Assembly: GCF_017696315.1 (NCBI RefSeq)
Contig: NZ_JAAORJ010000002.1
Location: 457,267 to 521,266, forward strand
Length of the DNA stretch: 64,000 nucleotides
Direction of reading: 5' to 3'
From: Prochlorococcus marinus XMU1412
GTDB lineage: Bacteria > Cyanobacteriota > Cyanobacteriia > PCC-6307 > Cyanobiaceae
Below the pieces are notes generated by a model that was given only the letters and a program-made list of their open reading frames with translations, had not been told where the DNA came from and ran no database searches. Below are positions 4,815 to 23,229 of the stretch, one piece after another. Both the position numbers and the translations under genes were made by a program. Within the stretch, counting starts at the first letter, position 1, and each line of letters begins with the position of its first letter.

Positions 4815-5051
4815 TCAGTGGGCTGCATTTTTCCCTAAACCTGCAACGAATGGAAAAGTTTGTTCATCACCAAATATATCTTCTACTGAAGAATTAGAAA
4901 TATTAGTTTTTTTATTATCAGGCTTAATTTCTTCAATTTCATTTGAAATATTATCTTTAATGTTATTTTCAATTTCTTTTGCTAATAAATTATTCGTATT
5001 AGAAAATATTGAAAAAACTAATACACATAAAAACAAAACAATTTTTTTCAT
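4815..5051 (-). CDS. Small exported protein, function unknown
   Basis: This 78-residue protein has a clear signal peptide (KKIVLFLCVLVFSIFSNTNNLLA) and a short acidic mature part ending in EQTFPFVAGLGKNAAH. The mature protein is only about 50 residues with no cysteines. The C-terminal motif looks conserved in style, being the least AT-biased part of the protein, but I cannot assign a family. It is probably lumenal or periplasmic. Confidence 0.65.
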   Translation of the reverse strand: MKKIVLFLCVLVFSIFSNTNNLLAKEIENNIKDNISNEIEEIKPDNKKTNISNSSVEDIFGDEQTFPFVAGLGKNAAH

Positions 5052-5152
5052 AAAAAAAATTTATCTAATACTATTGTCATACGCCAATAAAGTTATTTAG
5101 AAAAACTAGATAATTTTAAAACAAATCTAAATAAATCAAAATAAAAAAATAT

Positions 5153-5389
5153 TCATCTTCCCAATTTATTTCTATTTTTAAATCTAATTAAAAAATAAAG
5201 ACCTAGTAACAAAAGAATTGCCAAGGCGTACTGATTAAGAAAAACATAAACTATATAAACGAGAAATGGGAACAAGCACGCCCTCTTAAAATTCAATTTC
5301 TGTTCCTTTGACATATTTTTCCAATTTAAATATTCTTCCCATTGAAAAATCTTCTTCATTTTTCTACTTCTATTTTTACGATTAAACAT
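5153..5389 (-). CDS. Small membrane protein, function unknown
   Basis: This 78-residue protein has a strongly basic N-terminus (NRKNRSRKMKK), a middle segment rich in Trp and Lys, then two adjacent hydrophobic stretches (LFPFLVYIVYVFL and ALAILLLLGLYFLI) that could form a hairpin, and a basic end. An internal Met (residue 11) offers a shorter start. No family is recognised. It stands alone on the minus strand ahead of the divergent thioesterase gene. Confidence 0.55.
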   Translation of the reverse strand: MFNRKNRSRKMKKIFQWEEYLNWKNMSKEQKLNFKRACLFPFLVYIVYVFLNQYALAILLLLGLYFLIRFKNRNKLGR

Positions 5390-5496
5390 AACTTTATAAA
5401 TATAGTCTTGATGATTCTTATGTTAATAAACAAAATTAATCTACAATATCAAAATAAGTTTTTTTTCATTGAATAAAAATATTTTTTAAATAAAAG

Positions 5497-5916
5497 ATGA
5501 ACTCAAAACCAGTTTGGAAAATAGAAAAAATTGTTTTACCTCAAGATGCAGATCATGCAGGAGTTATGTGGCACGGTAAATATTTTAATTGGCTTGAAGA
5601 AAGCCGAATAAATGCACTTTCAGAAGTAGGTATAAGTTATTTCGAACTAACTAAAAATGGCTTAGATTTACCTTTAATCAATACTTCTATAAAATATAAA
5701 TCTCCTTTATTTCTTGGTGAAAAAATAACAATCGAGAGCGAATTCAATATTGATAAAAGTCCTAGGATTAATGTAATTTCAAAATTTCATAACAAGAAAA
5801 ATGAAATCTTAACGATTGCTGAAGTCAATTTAGTCTTAATAAATAAACTGAATTTTTCTATAATAAGAAAAAGACCAGATTTCCTATCGGAAGCCTTTAG
5901 TAAGTTAAACGGTTGA
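5497..5916 (+). CDS. Hotdog-fold acyl-CoA thioesterase, probably DHNA-CoA hydrolase
   Basis: This is a 139-residue 4HBT-type hotdog thioesterase. The N-terminal signature LPQDADHAGVMWHGKYF carries the conserved catalytic Asp (17 or 19), and NWLEESRINAL follows. Cyanobacteria use a close relative (Synechocystis slr0204) to hydrolyse 1,4-dihydroxy-2-naphthoyl-CoA in phylloquinone synthesis for photosystem I. That role is inferred from family and length; other acyl-CoA substrates are possible. The enzyme is cytosolic. Confidence 0.85.
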   Translation: MNSKPVWKIEKIVLPQDADHAGVMWHGKYFNWLEESRINALSEVGISYFELTKNGLDLPLINTSIKYKSPLFLGEKITIESEFNIDKSPRINVISKFHNKKNEILTIAEVNLVLINKLNFSIIRKRPDFLSEAFSKLNG

Positions 5917-15210: not shown

Positions 15211-15254
15211 CTTTTTAGAGAAAATCTAATAAATTAGCCTTTATCAGGACATGA

Positions 15255-15266
15255 TGATAATTATCA
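15255..15266. promoter_or_regulatory. Candidate Fur/Zur-type operator
   Basis: TGATAATTATCA is a perfect palindrome preceded by ATGA, so that GATGATAATTATCAC resembles the GATAAT-based boxes of Fur-family repressors. It lies upstream of the leftward three-helix membrane protein and downstream of the DUF1499 gene. In AT-rich DNA such palindromes can arise by chance. Confidence 0.4.
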
Positions 15267-17074: not shown

Positions 17075-17860
17075 TTATTTGCGAAGCTTAGGAATCAAAA
17101 GAGATGCAACACAAATAACACTAATTGCAGGCCCAGGCGAAAGATTGAAGACTATAGAGAGAATAAATCCCAGAAGTGAGATGCATAATCCAAAAAATGA
17201 AGACCTCATCATTGCAATTCTTAAACTATGAGCCTTATTTAGCCCTAACAAAGTTGGCGTAGAAAGAAGAGCAATTACAAGAATCACTCCCACTGCTGAC
17301 ATTGAACTAACAATTACTAATGCCGTTGTAAAACTCAAAGCAAGATTTAATAAAGAAACGTTTATACCACTTGCGGATGCACCTTCTGGATCTAATCCAA
17401 CATAAACAACCTTTTCATATCCAAAAGTCATTAAAATTATAAATACTAAAAAAGCAATTATTGTTCTAAGTAAATCTCCAAAATTTGCTGTCAATAAATC
17501 GCCAAATAATACTGCCTCCAAATCAATCCTTATTCCGAGTAAAGGGATTATAAGGACCCCAAATCCAAGCATTCCAGCGAGAATAGTATTCATAACTGCT
17601 TCATAATTTTCACTTTTTCTATTGGTTAAACTTTCCGCAATTACCGAGCCTAAAAGACCACTTATAACACCACCAATTGAAGGGTGAATTCCAAGCGCTA
17701 ATGCGAGAGCAAGTCCAGGCAACACGCAATGAGAGATTAAATTAACTTGTAATAATCTCTTATGGGTGATTAATACAGTTCCCATCGCTGGGCATAAGAT
17801 CCCAGAAAATATAGTTATTATTAATGGAACCAACCACCAGTTGTTATTAATAAAAGACAT
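17075..17860 (-). CDS. znuB: Zinc ABC transporter permease (ZnuB)
   Basis: This 261-residue ABC-3 family permease has about eight hydrophobic helices, including the family signature near CVLPGLALALALGIHPSIGG and the later DPEGASASGINV loop. It forms the inner-membrane channel for zinc delivered by ZnuA and driven by ZnuC. It lies leftward 18 bp from the possible zur start, and its own 5' region falls inside zur. I see no Zur box directly upstream, so it may depend on transcription coming from znuC through zur in antisense. Confidence 0.92.
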   Translation of the reverse strand: MSFINNNWWLVPLIITIFSGILCPAMGTVLITHKRLLQVNLISHCVLPGLALALALGIHPSIGGVISGLLGSVIAESLTNRKSENYEAVMNTILAGMLGFGVLIIPLLGIRIDLEAVLFGDLLTANFGDLLRTIIAFLVFIILMTFGYEKVVYVGLDPEGASASGINVSLLNLALSFTTALVIVSSMSAVGVILVIALLSTPTLLGLNKAHSLRIAMMRSSFFGLCISLLGFILSIVFNLSPGPAISVICVASLLIPKLRK

Positions 17861-17916
17861 TATTCGAAAGATTCGGTATGATCAAAAATACGAGGCAAAA
17901 AAAGATTTTGGAAGCA

Positions 17917-18312
17917 ATGGTAACTAAGTCTGACATTACCAAAAGACAAGAACAACTTCTTGAAGAACTTAATAAATGCGAGGATGAACTGAGCGGTCAA
18001 GAGTTGCATAGACAATTGATTGAAAGCGGAAAAGCTATGGGACTGACAACTGTTTACAGGAATCTTCAAGTTCTTATAAAGCATGGTTTAATTCGTTCTA
18101 GACATCTCCCAACAGGAGAGGTTCTTTATACTCCCGTAGATAGAGACATTCATCATTTGACCTGCGTTCAATGCGGAGAGACGTCGAAAATGGAAGGTTG
18201 TCCTGTTAAAGATATTCATGCCCCTAAAAAAAATCCAAGAAAGTTTCAACTTTTGTTTCATACACTCGAATATTTCGGCCTTTGCCAAAACTGTTATCAA
18301 GCTCAAAATTAA
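17917..18312 (+). CDS. zur: Fur-family zinc uptake regulator (Zur)
   Basis: This Fur-type repressor has a winged-helix N-terminus (ELSGQELHRQLIESGK, MGLTTVYRNLQVLIKHGLI) and a metal-binding C-terminus with HHLTCVQC...GCPV and GLCQNC, the two CxxC pairs of the structural zinc site. I prefer the ATG at 17917 (MVTKSDITKRQEQ, 131 residues, GGAAG just upstream) over the ATG at 17878, which gives an extra 13 residues of unusual sequence. Zur rather than Fur is inferred from the znu neighbours. The gene lies antisense between znuC and znuB. Confidence 0.9.
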   Translation: MVTKSDITKRQEQLLEELNKCEDELSGQELHRQLIESGKAMGLTTVYRNLQVLIKHGLIRSRHLPTGEVLYTPVDRDIHHLTCVQCGETSKMEGCPVKDIHAPKKNPRKFQLLFHTLEYFGLCQNCYQAQN

Positions 18313-18325
18313 TAAGGAACATTTT

Positions 18326-19096
18326 CTAATCACAGAAATTATTTTCCTTTATAGAGCTTATGTTTATCGCATCTAATTTATCTTTTATTTGATCAGGACT
18401 ACCAACTGCTAAAACACTTTTATCAAGAACGATTACTTGATCGTAGTTATTTAGAGACTCGCCCCAATCATGGCTACTTACTAGCAAAGAAAGTCCCGCA
18501 TCTGCGAGTTGACGAACAATTTTCAGGAAGTCCTCTTTTGCGGGGGGATCCAATGCCGCACAAGGTTCATCCAGAAGAAATATTTTTGCAGGGGACATAA
18601 GAGTTTTTGCTAATAGAGCTCTTTGTTGCTGTCCTCCTGAAAGAGAATCAAGTCTTCTATTAGCCAAATTAGCAATTCCTACTCTTTGCATTGTCGCTTC
18701 TAATTCACAACATTTATTAATCCAAGAATTAGGATATTCTAGAAGAGCCTTGATTTGAAAGGGGTTATTACTTCTTGATTTTGAATACTTTATTTGACCA
18801 AGAGATACCAATTTTTCAACTGTAATGGGAAACTTCCAATTCATAGAACTTCTTTGAGGCATAAGTGCCACTAGAGCTCTAGATCTATATAAATTTTCAC
18901 CATCAATTTTTATTTCGCCTTTATCTGGAGTATTTTGTCCTTGCAATATCCTCAAAAGAGTTGATTTTCCGGCACCATTTGGACCTACTAGCGCTGTTAG
19001 AGTTCCAGGTTTAATCTCAACCGATACCTTATTTAAAGCTGGCTTACTTTTTTCTGTGTATGCAAATGTTAAATTTTCAGCGACTAAAGTAGCCAT
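18326..19096 (-). CDS. znuC: Zinc ABC transporter ATPase (ZnuC)
   Basis: This 256-residue ABC ATPase has the Walker A motif GPNGAGKST near residue 37, the Q-loop LMPQRSS, the signature LSGGQQQR near 153 and Walker B IFLLDEP followed by SSHDWGES. It energises zinc import with ZnuB. It is divergent from znuA; the shared 139-bp gap holds a Zur box. Its stop is 13 bp from that of zur (convergent), and no clear terminator separates it from znuB beyond. Confidence 0.93.
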   Translation of the reverse strand: MATLVAENLTFAYTEKSKPALNKVSVEIKPGTLTALVGPNGAGKSTLLRILQGQNTPDKGEIKIDGENLYRSRALVALMPQRSSMNWKFPITVEKLVSLGQIKYSKSRSNNPFQIKALLEYPNSWINKCCELEATMQRVGIANLANRRLDSLSGGQQQRALLAKTLMSPAKIFLLDEPCAALDPPAKEDFLKIVRQLADAGLSLLVSSHDWGESLNNYDQVIVLDKSVLAVGSPDQIKDKLDAINISSIKENNFCD

Positions 19097-19195: not shown

Positions 19196-19216
19196 TGAAA
19201 ATGATTATCATTTTTA
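19196..19216. promoter_or_regulatory. Zur box in the znuC-znuA divergent promoter
   Basis: TGAAAATGATTATCATTTTTA is an imperfect inverted repeat of 9+3+9 bases with one mismatch, close to the cyanobacterial Zur consensus. It lies 20 bp upstream of the znuA start and 100 bp upstream of znuC, so one bound dimer could repress both directions when zinc is plentiful. Confidence 0.8.
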
Positions 19217-19235: not shown

Positions 19236-20750
19236 ATGTCAATTTTTAAAAGACTTTTATCAAATAAAACATGTTCAAGTAAGTCAATTATTAAAAATTC
19301 CGTAATCGCTGGAACGATTATATTTTCTGGTTTTGGGCAGGATGTAATGGCTAAAGGGAAGTCATACGTAGCAGTAGAACCACTAGTTTGTGATTTAGTT
19401 AAATCTATTGCTTTACCATCTGACGAAGTTACATGCTTAGTAGATAGAAAACAGGATGTTCATGACTTAAAGATCAATCCAAGACAAGCTCAATTACTAA
19501 ATAGCGCAGACAAAGTATTCACTCTTGGCAAAGAAATGACTCCAAGTATGAGAAATTGGGAAAGTAAAAAGAATACTATTGTTGTAGGTGTTAGTGCAAT
19601 AGACGTAGATGATCATTCTGATCATGAAGGTCACGATGACCATTCAGACCATGGCGGACATGACGATCATGCTGAACATTCAGCTAAGGTAGATGATCAT
19701 TCTGATCATGGAGGTCATGATGATCATGCTGAGGGTGCTTTCGAATGGGCAGGTAAATTCCAGCTTTCTAAGGGTTCATACAAATGGTCATTTGAAAAAG
19801 TCGATGGCGAATATGCAGATCCTGCAATGAAGATGGTGATTCTCAAATCTAATGACATAGAAGGGTCTGAAGATTTAGCCAAAGAATTATTAGGATCTAA
19901 AGACTCAATAAGCAGAAAAAATGATGGAACTTTGATAGCAAGTAATAAAGCTTTTGTTCTTAACTTTGATCAAAGAAAAGAAAGTACTGTTTTTAACGTG
20001 GATATCAAAGAAGATGGTGAATATATATTTTTTACTGAACACATGCCTTTTGAGTTTGAAGCAACTCAACACTTTTTTAAAGACGTTTCAAATAGTGATG
20101 TAGAACCAATAGCACAAGTTCCAGACGAAGGAGAGGGGCATCACCATCATGACCATGGAGGTCTAGATCCACATGTATGGCATGATCCACATAACATCAT
20201 AAAAATGGGAGATCTTATAAGCAAAAGTTTAAAGAAAGATATTTCAGTTTTTAATAGAGGTGACAGAAAACTAATTAATGAAAGATTCGAAAAAGCTGAT
20301 TCTCTCTTAGAAGGCTTAGATAGTTGGATCGTCGAACAAGTAAGCTCTATTCCTGAGGAAAACAGAGTAATTGTCTCTAAACACAAAGCAATGGAATACT
20401 ACGGGGATGCATTTGGTTTTGAAACCATTAGTTTACTTGACTTTCTTGGAGACTCCTCAAGCTTAAGGCCAGACAACATAAGTTCTACTTTAAAAATGTT
20501 AGATGAAGAGAAAGTTCAGGCGATATTTCCTGAACAAATTCCAGCATCTAAGTTATTAAGGAACTTAAGTAGACAAAGTTCAGTTCCTTTAGCTTCTAAT
20601 CAAATATTCGTTGATGGATTGATGATGGATGGTAATACGGTTTCAGTAGCCGTTCACAACACTTGTACAATTGTTGATTCATTAGGTGGAAGCTGTGATA
20701 AAGAATCTGGCTCCAATCTTGAGTCTGAATGGTATAAACTTTCAGATTAA
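19236..20750 (+). CDS. znuA: Zinc-binding protein ZnuA with inserted domain
   Basis: This is the periplasmic zinc-binding component of ZnuABC. At 504 residues it is far longer than usual (about 300). After a signal region (to about 39), the first lobe contains the ligand His76 (DVHDLK). Residues 125-166 are a His/Asp-rich loop of DHSDHGGHDDHAE repeats. Residues 168-282 are an extra domain (FEWAGKFQLSKGSY...YIFFTEHMPFEF). A second His run (GHHHHDH, 301-307), DPHVWHDP and the second lobe (VSKHKAMEYYGDAFG, LLDFLGDSS) follow. The insert resembles one in the next gene's GTPase. A Zur box precedes the gene. Confidence 0.93.
   Translation: MSIFKRLLSNKTCSSKSIIKNSVIAGTIIFSGFGQDVMAKGKSYVAVEPLVCDLVKSIALPSDEVTCLVDRKQDVHDLKINPRQAQLLNSADKVFTLGKEMTPSMRNWESKKNTIVVGVSAIDVDDHSDHEGHDDHSDHGGHDDHAEHSAKVDDHSDHGGHDDHAEGAFEWAGKFQLSKGSYKWSFEKVDGEYADPAMKMVILKSNDIEGSEDLAKELLGSKDSISRKNDGTLIASNKAFVLNFDQRKESTVFNVDIKEDGEYIFFTEHMPFEFEATQHFFKDVSNSDVEPIAQVPDEGEGHHHHDHGGLDPHVWHDPHNIIKMGDLISKSLKKDISVFNRGDRKLINERFEKADSLLEGLDSWIVEQVSSIPEENRVIVSKHKAMEYYGDAFGFETISLLDFLGDSSSLRPDNISSTLKMLDEEKVQAIFPEQIPASKLLRNLSRQSSVPLASNQIFVDGLMMDGNTVSVAVHNTCTIVDSLGGSCDKESGSNLESEWYKLSD
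19608..19733. repeat. His-rich coding repeats in znuA
   Basis: GATGATCATTCTGATCATG and similar 12-30-bp blocks repeat three times in tandem, encoding (D)DHSDHxGHDDHAE units. The loop lies at the metal-entry site of ZnuA proteins. The near-identity of the DNA copies suggests expansion by slippage or unequal recombination. Confidence 0.85.
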
Positions 20751-20827
20751 ATTTTTCTAATAAAAACGGTTTTCATTTCTTATTATTACTATTATTAAAC
20801 TATTGTTTATTTGGTAAAAATCAGTAA

Positions 20828-22183
20828 ATGAGCATCAAAGATAAAGTTCCAGTTACTATTCTCACTGGATTTCTAGGTTCAGGGAAAACTACTTTACTTA
20901 ATAGAATACTAAGTGAAGAGCACGGGAAAAGAATAGCCGTAATTGAGAATGAATACGGTGAAGTAGGGATAGATCAAGGGCTCGTAATTAATGCCGATGA
21001 AGAAGTGTTTGAGATGTCAAACGGGTGCATTTGTTGTACTGTTCGCGGTGATTTGATAAGAGTCCTTGGCAACCTTATGAAAAGAAGAGATAAGTTTGAC
21101 TATGTTTTAGTAGAAACGACCGGATTAGCAGATCCTGGGCCAGTCGCGCAGACATTTTTCATGGATGAAGAAATTAGTTCTGAATTTACTCTTGATGGAA
21201 TTGTAACTTTAGTTGATGCTGCTCATATTGATCAGCAGCTAGGAAGAAGTGATGAAAGTTCAGAACAAGTTGCGTTTGCAGATGTTCTTGTCCTTAATAA
21301 AACTGATTTAGTCTCTGATGATGCACTAGATACTCTTGAATCGAGATTGAGAGATATGAACCGAATGACTCGAATCATTAGAGCCGAGAATGCCCAAGTA
21401 CCAATCGAAACAGTCCTAAATCTAAGTGCATTTGATCTAGATCAAATCCTTAAACGCAGACCAACATTTCTTGAACCAGAATATCCTTTTGAATGGACAG
21501 GTGTTTACGACCTTGCTGCAGGTAAATATGAATTAATGCTAGAAGAAGGTCCCGATCCAGAAATGTCATTAGTAGCTTTCGCTAATCAAAGTGAGAGTGA
21601 AGAAGAACTTAAAGATGGTGCTGAATCCTGCGTAAGACTTTATGCAGAAAAAGCTAAAAGCTTAGAACCTGGTAATATCATTCCATTTGGAGAACATATA
21701 AACCTTAAATTGGAGGATAAAGGAAATAAATCATTTATATTAAATATCGAAAAGGGATCAAAGATAGGTTTATATACACAGCACACTGCTGAAGAATTCA
21801 ATATGAAAATCATTAAAAGTGAAGACAATAATTCAAAAGAGATCCCATTTAATATTGAAAGATTCTGGCAAGCCGAGCACGAGCACGATGATGAAGTAAC
21901 GTCCATTGCAATTGAACGATTTGGAGATGTTGATCCAGAAAAACTTAATACTTGGTTGGGCAGACTTCTTTCTGAAAAAGGGGTGGATATATTTAGAACT
22001 AAAGGTTTCATTAGCTACTCAGGCAACCCACAGAGAATAGTTTTCCAAGGGGTACATATGTTATTTACAGCGCAACCTGATAAGGAATGGGGTAACGAAC
22101 CTCGTAGAAACCAACTTGTTTTTATAGGTAGAAATTTGGACGAGAAAGAGATGAAAGAAGGTTTTGAAAAATGCCTGATATAG
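20828..22183 (+). CDS. COG0523 (CobW/ZNG1-type) metal chaperone GTPase with inserted domain
   Basis: This 451-residue P-loop GTPase, probably a zinc chaperone, has Walker A GFLGSGKTT (residues 14-22), the metal motif GCICC (Cys67, 69, 70), ETTGLADP and NKTD. Residues 221-330 form an extra domain (FEWTGVYDLAAGKYELML...IGLYTQHTAEEF) like that inside ZnuA, ahead of a HEHDDE His motif and the CobW_C domain (WLGRLLSEKGVDIFRTKGF, about 375-448). It follows znuA by 77 bp and overlaps the WD40 gene by 13 bp. Zinc rather than cobalt is inferred from context. Confidence 0.93.
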   Translation: MSIKDKVPVTILTGFLGSGKTTLLNRILSEEHGKRIAVIENEYGEVGIDQGLVINADEEVFEMSNGCICCTVRGDLIRVLGNLMKRRDKFDYVLVETTGLADPGPVAQTFFMDEEISSEFTLDGIVTLVDAAHIDQQLGRSDESSEQVAFADVLVLNKTDLVSDDALDTLESRLRDMNRMTRIIRAENAQVPIETVLNLSAFDLDQILKRRPTFLEPEYPFEWTGVYDLAAGKYELMLEEGPDPEMSLVAFANQSESEEELKDGAESCVRLYAEKAKSLEPGNIIPFGEHINLKLEDKGNKSFILNIEKGSKIGLYTQHTAEEFNMKIIKSEDNNSKEIPFNIERFWQAEHEHDDEVTSIAIERFGDVDPEKLNTWLGRLLSEKGVDIFRTKGFISYSGNPQRIVFQGVHMLFTAQPDKEWGNEPRRNQLVFIGRNLDEKEMKEGFEKCLI

Positions 22184-23229
22184 AATCATTTAGCCCAAGA
22201 GGCATGTTCCACGAGGGATGGACAGCTGAAGTTAATGATTATGCCATAGTTTGTGGTTGGGCTACTAAAGGAAAGTTATTCATTGTTGGGGATGTAGCAG
22301 GAGGTATTTTTGCCTTTGAAGGAGATACTGGGAAAATTATTTGGAAAAAAGAAAATACACACTCTGCTGGTCTATTAGCAATGTCCATTCATCCAGAAGG
22401 AGAGATTTTTGCAACTTCCGGTCAAGATGGAAATATTCAAATATATAATTGTCACGAAGGTAAAGTAATTAAAACTCTCGATCTTGGCAAGGCTTGGGTA
22501 GAGCATCTTAAGTGGTCAAATGATGGCTTATTTCTTGCAGCAGCTTCTTCAAAAAAAGTATATGTTTTTAATGAAATTGGGGAAGAAAAATGGGTATCAG
22601 ATGATCATCCAAGCACAGTGAGTGCAATAAAATGGTCAAACAATAATGAGCTAGCTACAGCCTGCTACGGGAGAGTAACATTCTTTGACATAGTAAATAA
22701 TAAAACGAATCAAAAGCTCGAGTGGCAAGGATCATTAGTCTCAATGGAATTAAGTCCTGATGGTGATATAGTCGCTTGCGGGAGTCAAGACAATTCAGTT
22801 CATTTTTGGAGAAGATCAACCGGAATGGATGCTGAAATGACAGGATACCCAGGGAAACCCAGTCACCTTTCTTTTGACGATAGTGGAAAATTACTGGCAA
22901 CTAGTGGCAGTGAAAGAATTACAGTGTGGAGCTTTATAGGTGACGGTCCCGAGGGGACTATGCCTGGAGAGCTATGGCACCATACCGAACCTATTTCTAG
23001 CCTAGCCTTTTCAAATAAAGGCATGCTTGTAGCTTCCGGATCTAGAGATGGTTCTGTTGTCGCAAGTTTTCTAAAAAAAGACGGTAATGGTGACCCAGTT
23101 GGGGCTGCATTCGCAGGCGATTTAGTGGGTGCACTTTCGTGGAGACCTGATGATTGTGCACTAGCTGCAGTTAACGCAAAAGGTGTAGTAAATGTTTGGA
23201 AATTTAAAGTTCGTACTAATTCTTTTTGA
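22171..23229 (+). CDS. WD40-repeat protein linked to zinc genes
   Basis: This 352-residue beta-propeller protein has about seven WD40-type repeats visible as GHS/TSGQDGNIQIYN, WSNDGLFLAAAS, SPDGDIVACGSQDNSVHFW, SGKLLATSGSERITVW and VASGSRDGSVV. No signal peptide or enzyme domain is seen. Its ATG lies within the last codons of the COG0523 GTPase (13-bp overlap), so translation is probably coupled and the proteins may be partners. WD40 proteins serve as scaffolds; its partner and role in zinc handling are inference. Confidence 0.88.
   Translation: MPDIESFSPRGMFHEGWTAEVNDYAIVCGWATKGKLFIVGDVAGGIFAFEGDTGKIIWKKENTHSAGLLAMSIHPEGEIFATSGQDGNIQIYNCHEGKVIKTLDLGKAWVEHLKWSNDGLFLAAASSKKVYVFNEIGEEKWVSDDHPSTVSAIKWSNNNELATACYGRVTFFDIVNNKTNQKLEWQGSLVSMELSPDGDIVACGSQDNSVHFWRRSTGMDAEMTGYPGKPSHLSFDDSGKLLATSGSERITVWSFIGDGPEGTMPGELWHHTEPISSLAFSNKGMLVASGSRDGSVVASFLKKDGNGDPVGAAFAGDLVGALSWRPDDCALAAVNAKGVVNVWKFKVRTNSF

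Follow-up and report, generated by a model that had tools for sequence, protein, structure and literature searches.

Why should an exported zinc-binding protein and the cytosolic GTPase encoded next to it carry the same block of sequence, and what could that block be doing in both compartments? This question arises in Prochlorococcus marinus XMU1412 (genome of 1.73 Mb), in a stretch of 64,000 nucleotides of contig NZ_JAAORJ010000002.1 (positions 457,267 to 521,266 of the forward strand; hereafter the window, whose own coordinates are used throughout) in which znuA is followed by a gene for a COG0523 GTPase. A sequence-only reading of the window had noticed a shared residue pattern in the two products, at 19737-20081 and 21488-21817, and had proposed an inserted domain common to both. 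We found both segments at these positions, and our analysis shows that the two blocks are homologous, ~105 to 130 amino acids long each, and belong to one domain family, designated here the FEW module. The blocks end a little further on than that reading had placed them, at about 20117 in znuA and about 21868 in the GTPase gene. The two genes and their modules are as follows.

19236 to 20750, + strand: znuA with insert, encoding a zinc ABC transporter substrate-binding protein of 504 amino acids (Pfam PF01297 ZnuA, E 9.4e-42, in two stretches)
19740 to 20117, + strand: module in ZnuA (FEW...YADPAM...TEHMPFEF...PIAQ), residues 169 to about 294 (from BLASTP, profiles, alignments, and an AF2 model)
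20828 to 22183, + strand: gene for a COG0523 (CobW-type) GTPase with insert (PF02492 and PF07683 flanking the insert)
21488 to 21868, + strand: module in the GTPase (FEWTG...GPDPEM...TQHTAEEF), residues 221 to about 347 (same four sources)

A single BLASTP comparison of the two whole proteins aligned the N-terminal 49 amino acids of the blocks at an E value of 7e-5. The match between a profile of 10 ZnuA block sequences and one of 13 GTPase block sequences was significant, hhalign aligning 103 columns with a probability of 97.9 and an E value of 4e-13. Searches of 292 cyanobacterial genomes crossed from one host to the other in both directions: the ZnuA insert as query reached GTPase inserts (best E 6.5e-6; any match in 19 genomes) and the GTPase insert reached ZnuA inserts (best E 1.9e-5; any match in 23). 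Within its own genome, the ZnuA insert retrieved the neighboring GTPase insert weakly (E 0.0119), these being the only two places at E ≤10. Moreover, a hidden Markov model (HMM) of 13 GTPase inserts recognized the window ZnuA open reading frame (ORF) at 2.9e-12, the best of 1120 shuffles giving 0.052, and an HMM of seven cyanobacterial ZnuA inserts recognized the window GTPase ORF at 4.8e-5, against a best shuffle of 0.22. Five group HMMs (GTPase, 13 rows; cyanobacterial ZnuA, 7; haloarchaeal ZnuA, 4; free-standing copies, 3; membrane protein, 1) each recovered members of the other groups above all 1120 shuffles. The profile comparison and the shuffles rule out chance similarity and, together with the BLASTP result, a 24-member alignment, and the comparison with insert-less relatives described below, bear out the proposal of a shared inserted domain.

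Both hosts are themselves known proteins. The window ZnuA belongs to the ZnuA family (143.7 bits against PF01297; cut-off, 29), and the GTPase matches PF02492 cobW over residues 8-184 (E 2.2e-61; 207 bits; cut-off, 20.7) and PF07683 CobW_C over residues 358-450 (E 4.1e-25; 87.9 bits; cut-off, 22). Alignment with three insert-less GTPases places the GTPase insert between FLxE(E/D) and HEHD, i.e., at the junction of the GTPase domain and CobW_C, the HEHD motif following FLxE(E/D) immediately when the insert is lacking. Alignment with two insert-less ZnuA-family proteins, one of which has a His-rich loop, places the ZnuA insert within that loop. The metal-binding segments of the two hosts are the following.

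19602 to 19733, + strand: His/Asp-rich loop before the ZnuA module, counted in the sequence (12 His in the preceding 45 amino acids)
20136 to 20162, + strand: His tract after the ZnuA module, GHHHHDHGG, read in the sequence
21023 to 21037, + strand: metal motif of the GTPase, GCICC (CxCC; NGCICC in the sequence), read in the sequence and of the kind described in PMC2770081
21878 to 21892, + strand: HEHDD motif after the GTPase module, from the alignment with the three insert-less GTPases

Thus, the suggestion that each block adjoins a His-rich metal segment holds for ZnuA, with 12 His in 45 amino acids before the module and HHHHDH after it, but only weakly for the GTPase, in which the 45 amino acids before the module contain no His and only the short HEHD follows.

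All 24 aligned members (GTPases, cyanobacterial and haloarchaeal ZnuA, lipoproteins, and the membrane protein) stayed below the family cut-offs of Pfam and NCBIfam, and the module had only noise-level matches in PHROGs. Searched alone, the ZnuA block matched no family and the GTPase block matched DUF7244 below its cut-off (E 0.19); the best matches among PDB sequences were noise as well (E 1 and 0.72). The lowest E value from any of the family libraries, 0.00039, belonged to NCBIfam NF005913, named "hypothetical protein," which matched 2 of the 24 members; we took this as noise, one member scoring 12.5 bits against a cut-off of 382. Full-text literature searches turned up no description recognized as this insert, pattern-based scans of viral contigs with either alignment found no relative, and the ZnuA insert found none in phages. 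Hence, the FEW module is a new domain family without a name in Pfam, NCBIfam, or PHROGs, in agreement with the sequence-only reading, which had known of no family for it.

Six positions do not vary among the 24 archaeal and bacterial members: E4, G14, D25, H106, E110, and F111. In motif terms, these are the Glu of FEW, a Gly, the Asp of GPDP, the His of TxH, and the Glu-Phe pair of EF. In a 52-row alignment of both types, comprising the window and near relatives, the columns that never vary include E3, D28, H102, E106, and F107. Cys is absent from six ZnuA and lipoprotein modules among the ten modules listed.

AF2 predicted a beta sandwich for both blocks, with three strands, a helix, and five strands in that order. 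The ZnuA block model had a pLDDT of 86.1 and a pTM of 0.81, and the GTPase block model, of middling quality, a pLDDT of 70.5 and a pTM of 0.66 (mean pLDDT of 70.5 to 50.9 over its five models). The order of strands and helix is nearly the same, as expected for one fold, the last five strands not being one-to-one (a short strand at 65-67 in the ZnuA model only and a strand at 107-112 in the GTPase model only); since both structure alignments mixed ZnuA and GTPase sequences, the agreement of the models is not independent. We infer from the strand order that E3, D28, H102, and E106 could lie together at one end of the sandwich. For either model, Foldseek returned no match at E <0.001, its top rows being unrelated beta sandwiches, and VIA-align returned none at Z ≥8 (at Z ≥5, none for the ZnuA block and three for the GTPase block). 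Sixteen of the 50 listed VIA-align entries were common to both models, among them GPR180 (9fow; Z 4.6 for the ZnuA block and 5.3 for the GTPase block) and supernatant protein factor (1olm; 4.0 and 5.4), which rank near the top of both lists, and the p24 GOLD domain (5azw; 3.4 and 4.5). We take the N terminus of GPR180 and supernatant protein factor to be of the GOLD type as well. Altogether, the weak matches, to GOLD, carbohydrate-binding, receptor, and capsid-type sandwiches, are consistent with a single sandwich fold, GOLD-like or jelly-roll, but are no proof of kinship: the GOLD-type values of 3.4 to 5.4 stay under 8, the level that would speak for more than a common arrangement, and no GOLD family appeared among the Pfam matches of the 24 members at E ≤1.

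How widespread is the module, and is it always found in both hosts? With the 24-member alignment as query, 31 of 386 sampled cyanobacterial genomes gave a match. All 31 carried the module in the GTPase (frames and positions listed), 22 carried it also in ZnuA, and none in ZnuA alone; the two genes lie far apart in 2 of the 22 (genomes G294 and G350). In G350, a truncated N-terminal piece of the GTPase lies beside the module-bearing znuA (L187 3573-3974), the module-bearing GTPase being encoded elsewhere. In a draw of 119 relatives, 55 matched, and genomes of the same genus that are 94 and 97% complete exist without any match. A scan of a named collection gave, as the best 80 of 460 relatives, 77 loci titled Prochlorococcus and three titled uncultured Synechococcaceae. 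Each of these 80 loci has one GTPase module, by which the loci were found. The number in ZnuA varies: one module in 65 loci, two in 6, and none in 7, of which two loci begin inside znuA, while the 2 loci lacking the end of znuA were not judged.

Two tandem, diverged modules occur in the ZnuA of L091, L096, L097, L101, L103, and L106 and of genomes G161, G406, G414, and G445, the copies being, where listed, 70 to 72% and 74 to 76% identical to the window copy. We left out an 873-amino-acid ZnuA frame of genome G223 that carries two copies, as it crosses a block of unknown bases. ZnuA without the module was found at L222 and L223 (genomes G358 and G219) and at L109, L111, L119, L121, and L132. 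At L222 and L223, which are from the same genus, the module site is filled by DDHDDHGHSAKK-type (DDHDDH-type) repeats.

Since the best 80 of 460 relatives are all Prochlorococcus or Synechococcaceae, the spread beyond Cyanobacteriota rests on 11 plasmid records. These were the matches at E ≤1 when 72,556 plasmid records were searched by tblastn, the weakest being Halosolutus at 0.4; three other queries against the same records gave 10 matches (without Paraburkholderia), 11, and 11, with Halosolutus at 5e-32, 3e-14, and 2e-5. Four of the hosts are haloarchaeal ZnuA-type proteins, three of them annotated and beside transporter genes and one read as a frame in an unannotated record. Three others are free-standing haloarchaeal copies with a lipoprotein-like start, judged by inspection, and His-rich ends. 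An Alicyclobacillus curvatus plasmid (L142 4782-5690) encodes a membrane protein with the module inserted beside His-rich stretches, in a metal-gene cluster with a metal-sensitive regulator and cation transporters nearby; this host remained unmatched in Pfam at E ≤0.01 and in NCBIfam at E ≤1, and presumably resembles a NicO-type transporter. The free-standing copies and the Alicyclobacillus host are annotated in the plasmid records as hypothetical proteins. The remaining hosts are GTPases, two from Pantoea and one from Paraburkholderia. One of the two Pantoea genes, on a plasmid of Pantoea soli (L150 near 5001-5694), is broken up into short frames; genes for a transcriptional repressor and for zigA lie a few kilobases away. 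One free-standing lipoprotein-like copy, on plasmid pNVE414 of Natrinema versiforme (L145 4875-5423), directly follows a cluster of urease and urease-accessory genes, a position that hints at nickel. Thus, the expectation that further copies would occur only in zinc-linked proteins is mostly borne out, by ZnuA-type proteins, COG0523 GTPases, the Alicyclobacillus membrane protein with its metal-gene neighbors, and the His-rich lipoproteins, the departure being the lipoprotein by the urease operon.

Did the module of one gene simply spread into its neighbor? In a maximum-likelihood tree of 26 copies, one branch (95/91; recovered in 94% of 200 bootstrap trees) separates the GTPase copies from all exported ones. 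Among the latter, the cyanobacterial ZnuA copies (100/99) group with the haloarchaeal ZnuA (weaker, 77/81), lipoprotein (99/96), and membrane copies. This split by host type speaks against the view that znuA recently acquired its insert from the adjacent GTPase gene. The simplest reading of these sequences would be two old lineages, one per cell compartment, rather than copying between neighboring genes. Nevertheless, many branches are long and some of them meet, and the midpoint root is arbitrary, so that the case against recent copying is not final.

The surroundings of the two genes bear on the metal concerned. In addition to znuA and the GTPase gene, the locus comprises the following features.

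17075 to 17860, − strand: znuB (ORF, named by inspection)
17878 to 18312, + strand: gene for a Fur-family regulator, probably Zur (ORF, named by inspection)
18326 to 19096, − strand: znuC (ORF, named by inspection)
19196 to 19210, + strand: Zur-box-like palindrome TGAAAATGATTATCA between the divergent znuC and znuA (one mismatch to TGATAATNATTATCA)
22171 to 23229, + strand: gene for a WD40 protein (Pfam WD40, E 1.9e-28), overlapping the end of the GTPase gene

Palindromes were scored against TGATAATNATTATCA, which we take to be the Zur-box motif. The window contains four sites with at most two mismatches, compared to 1.5 expected, and at least four were reached in 9 of 100 shuffles; the site at 19196-19210 is therefore supported by its position more than by its rarity. 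A second palindrome of this kind, TGATGATAATTATCA, lies at 15252-15266 with one mismatch, between two small minus-strand ORFs. The genome of the window also encodes a second ZnuA-family binding protein of 302 amino acids (G000:C2:95140-95928, L001), which has neither the module nor a His-rich loop. A WD40 gene follows the GTPase gene also in Pantoea agglomerans (by Pfam), Paraburkholderia (annotated), Lichenicola, and Gemmobacter. The WD40 protein was considered as a docking partner of the module, a role made less likely by the GTPases of Lichenicola and Gemmobacter, which lack the module and yet are followed by the WD40 gene.

Several known systems resemble parts of this arrangement. In the znuA cluster of Synechococcus WH8102, synw0968 to synw0973, the genes go up in a zur mutant, including two uncharacterized ones adjoining znuA, and a Zur box lies between the divergent znuC and znuA (PMC9337993), as a Zur-box-like palindrome does in the window. 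Haas et al. 2009 (PMC2770081) describe clustering of WD40 and znuABC genes with COG0523 subfamily 5, which includes most of the eukaryotic members. The window GTPase shares with this subfamily the CobW and CobW_C domains, the GCICC motif, and the znuA and WD40 neighbors; in contrast, an insert is not mentioned in the available part of that source, and insert-less relatives with a WD40 neighbor exist. Like the window ZnuA, the zinc substrate-binding protein AdcA combines an accessory domain, ZinT-like, with a His-rich loop, and both loop and extra domain serve zinc recruitment (PMC8416893). Unlike the FEW module, which is inserted in a loop and is also present in COG0523 GTPases, the ZinT-like domain is fused at the C terminus. 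The module itself is not a ZinT domain: hhalign against Escherichia coli ZinT gave a probability of 0.5 and an E value of 0.11, and no ZinT occurred among the Pfam matches of the 24 members at E ≤1. By analogy, the module may nevertheless work like the accessory recruitment domain of AdcA. ZepA (All3515) of Anabaena, a Zur-controlled zinc-binding protein with an immunoglobulin-like beta sandwich in its model, resembles the module in its modeled sandwich and zinc link; unlike the module, it is described as a free exoprotein with a PEP-CTERM domain (PMC10957091). The two are also set apart by the ZepA zinc motif, H-x(2-9)-H-F/Y-H, which none of 28 module sequences contains.

What, then, might the module do? 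It may plausibly serve zinc sensing, delivery, or docking, as the sequence-only reading had put forward. With moderate confidence, we favor the FEW module as a putative portable module for holding and relaying metal. We propose that flexible His-rich or HxH segments would catch Zn2+, that the fixed Glu-Asp-His-Glu set on the module would bind the ion or slow its loss, and that the metal would then be handed to the high-affinity site of the host, i.e., the substrate cleft in ZnuA or the CxCC/GTP site in the GTPase. This reading is favored by the invariant acidic and His residues, by the site of the module beside flexible metal-binding segments, and by hosts that have metal handling in common and not location or partner, all those found being metal-handling proteins, proteins encoded among metal genes, or His-rich lipoproteins. 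Zinc is the likely metal for ZnuA and the Zur-type cluster; we are less sure of it for the lipoprotein beside the urease operon. Several points weigh against this reading. Relatives of both ZnuA and the COG0523 GTPase without the module exist within the same genus or family, so that it is not needed for basic function; the GTPase hosts have almost no His-rich segment; the conservation of Asp, Glu, and His could also be explained by folding or by a protein interface; and the metal need not be zinc, given the urease-adjacent copy and the place of the Alicyclobacillus host among other metal transporters.

If the invariant residues formed an interface, the sandwich could be a docking module that binds a partner such as a chaperone or a transporter. 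Several of the weakly matching fold types (GOLD, carbohydrate-binding, receptor, and capsid) do bind other molecules, and COG0523 proteins have been described as segmentally variable, their variable parts being proposed to set interaction specificity (PMC2770081). A common partner is, however, hard to name for modules on both sides of the membrane, in varied hosts and in different domains of life, and three copies are free-standing, so that we regard docking as rather unlikely. The module might otherwise be a structural spacer or folding aid that separates or shields the halves of the His-rich loop and has no site of its own. The His-rich repeats in its place in some ZnuA and its duplication in others would fit, implying that the exact number is not essential; yet a spacer would hardly be expected to keep invariant charged residues in 24 archaeal and bacterial members, to form one lineage per host type, or to occur free-standing, and we consider this improbable. 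Very improbable, in our view, is a small-ligand module, in which the sandwich would bind a metal-chelate or another small molecule in the manner of a carbohydrate-binding module (CBM) and not the bare ion: both models weakly match the fold of a CBM35 (2w1w; Z 4.0 and 4.0) and Pfam CBM_35 gave a sub-threshold match in 2 of the 24 members (best E 0.017), but all such matches are within noise and a chelate would be unexpected in a cytosolic GTPase.

For the metal relay that we favor, the occurrence of the module in metal proteins of a cyanobacterium, of other bacteria, and of haloarchaea suggests a reusable metal-handling part. A broader proposal, which we advance only tentatively and with some doubt, is that of a zinc-handling family of an age that would explain its presence in both archaea and bacteria, and serving both compartments of one zinc pathway, with exported capture proteins and transporters on one side and, on the other, cytosolic GTPases of the eukaryotic zinc-chaperone subfamily, COG0523 subfamily 5, whose eukaryotic members are presumably those named ZNG1 or CBWD. 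If true, both lineages might take up and release metal through a shared chemistry, and one module would act at the entry and at the delivery ends of zinc supply. A module family would improve the annotation of proteins now called hypothetical. ZnuA and COG0523 GTPases are central to life on little zinc, and the control of their metal transfer is poorly known; a shared domain with defined invariant residues and natural ZnuA variants of zero, one, or two copies offers a small object for probing metal capture and hand-over.

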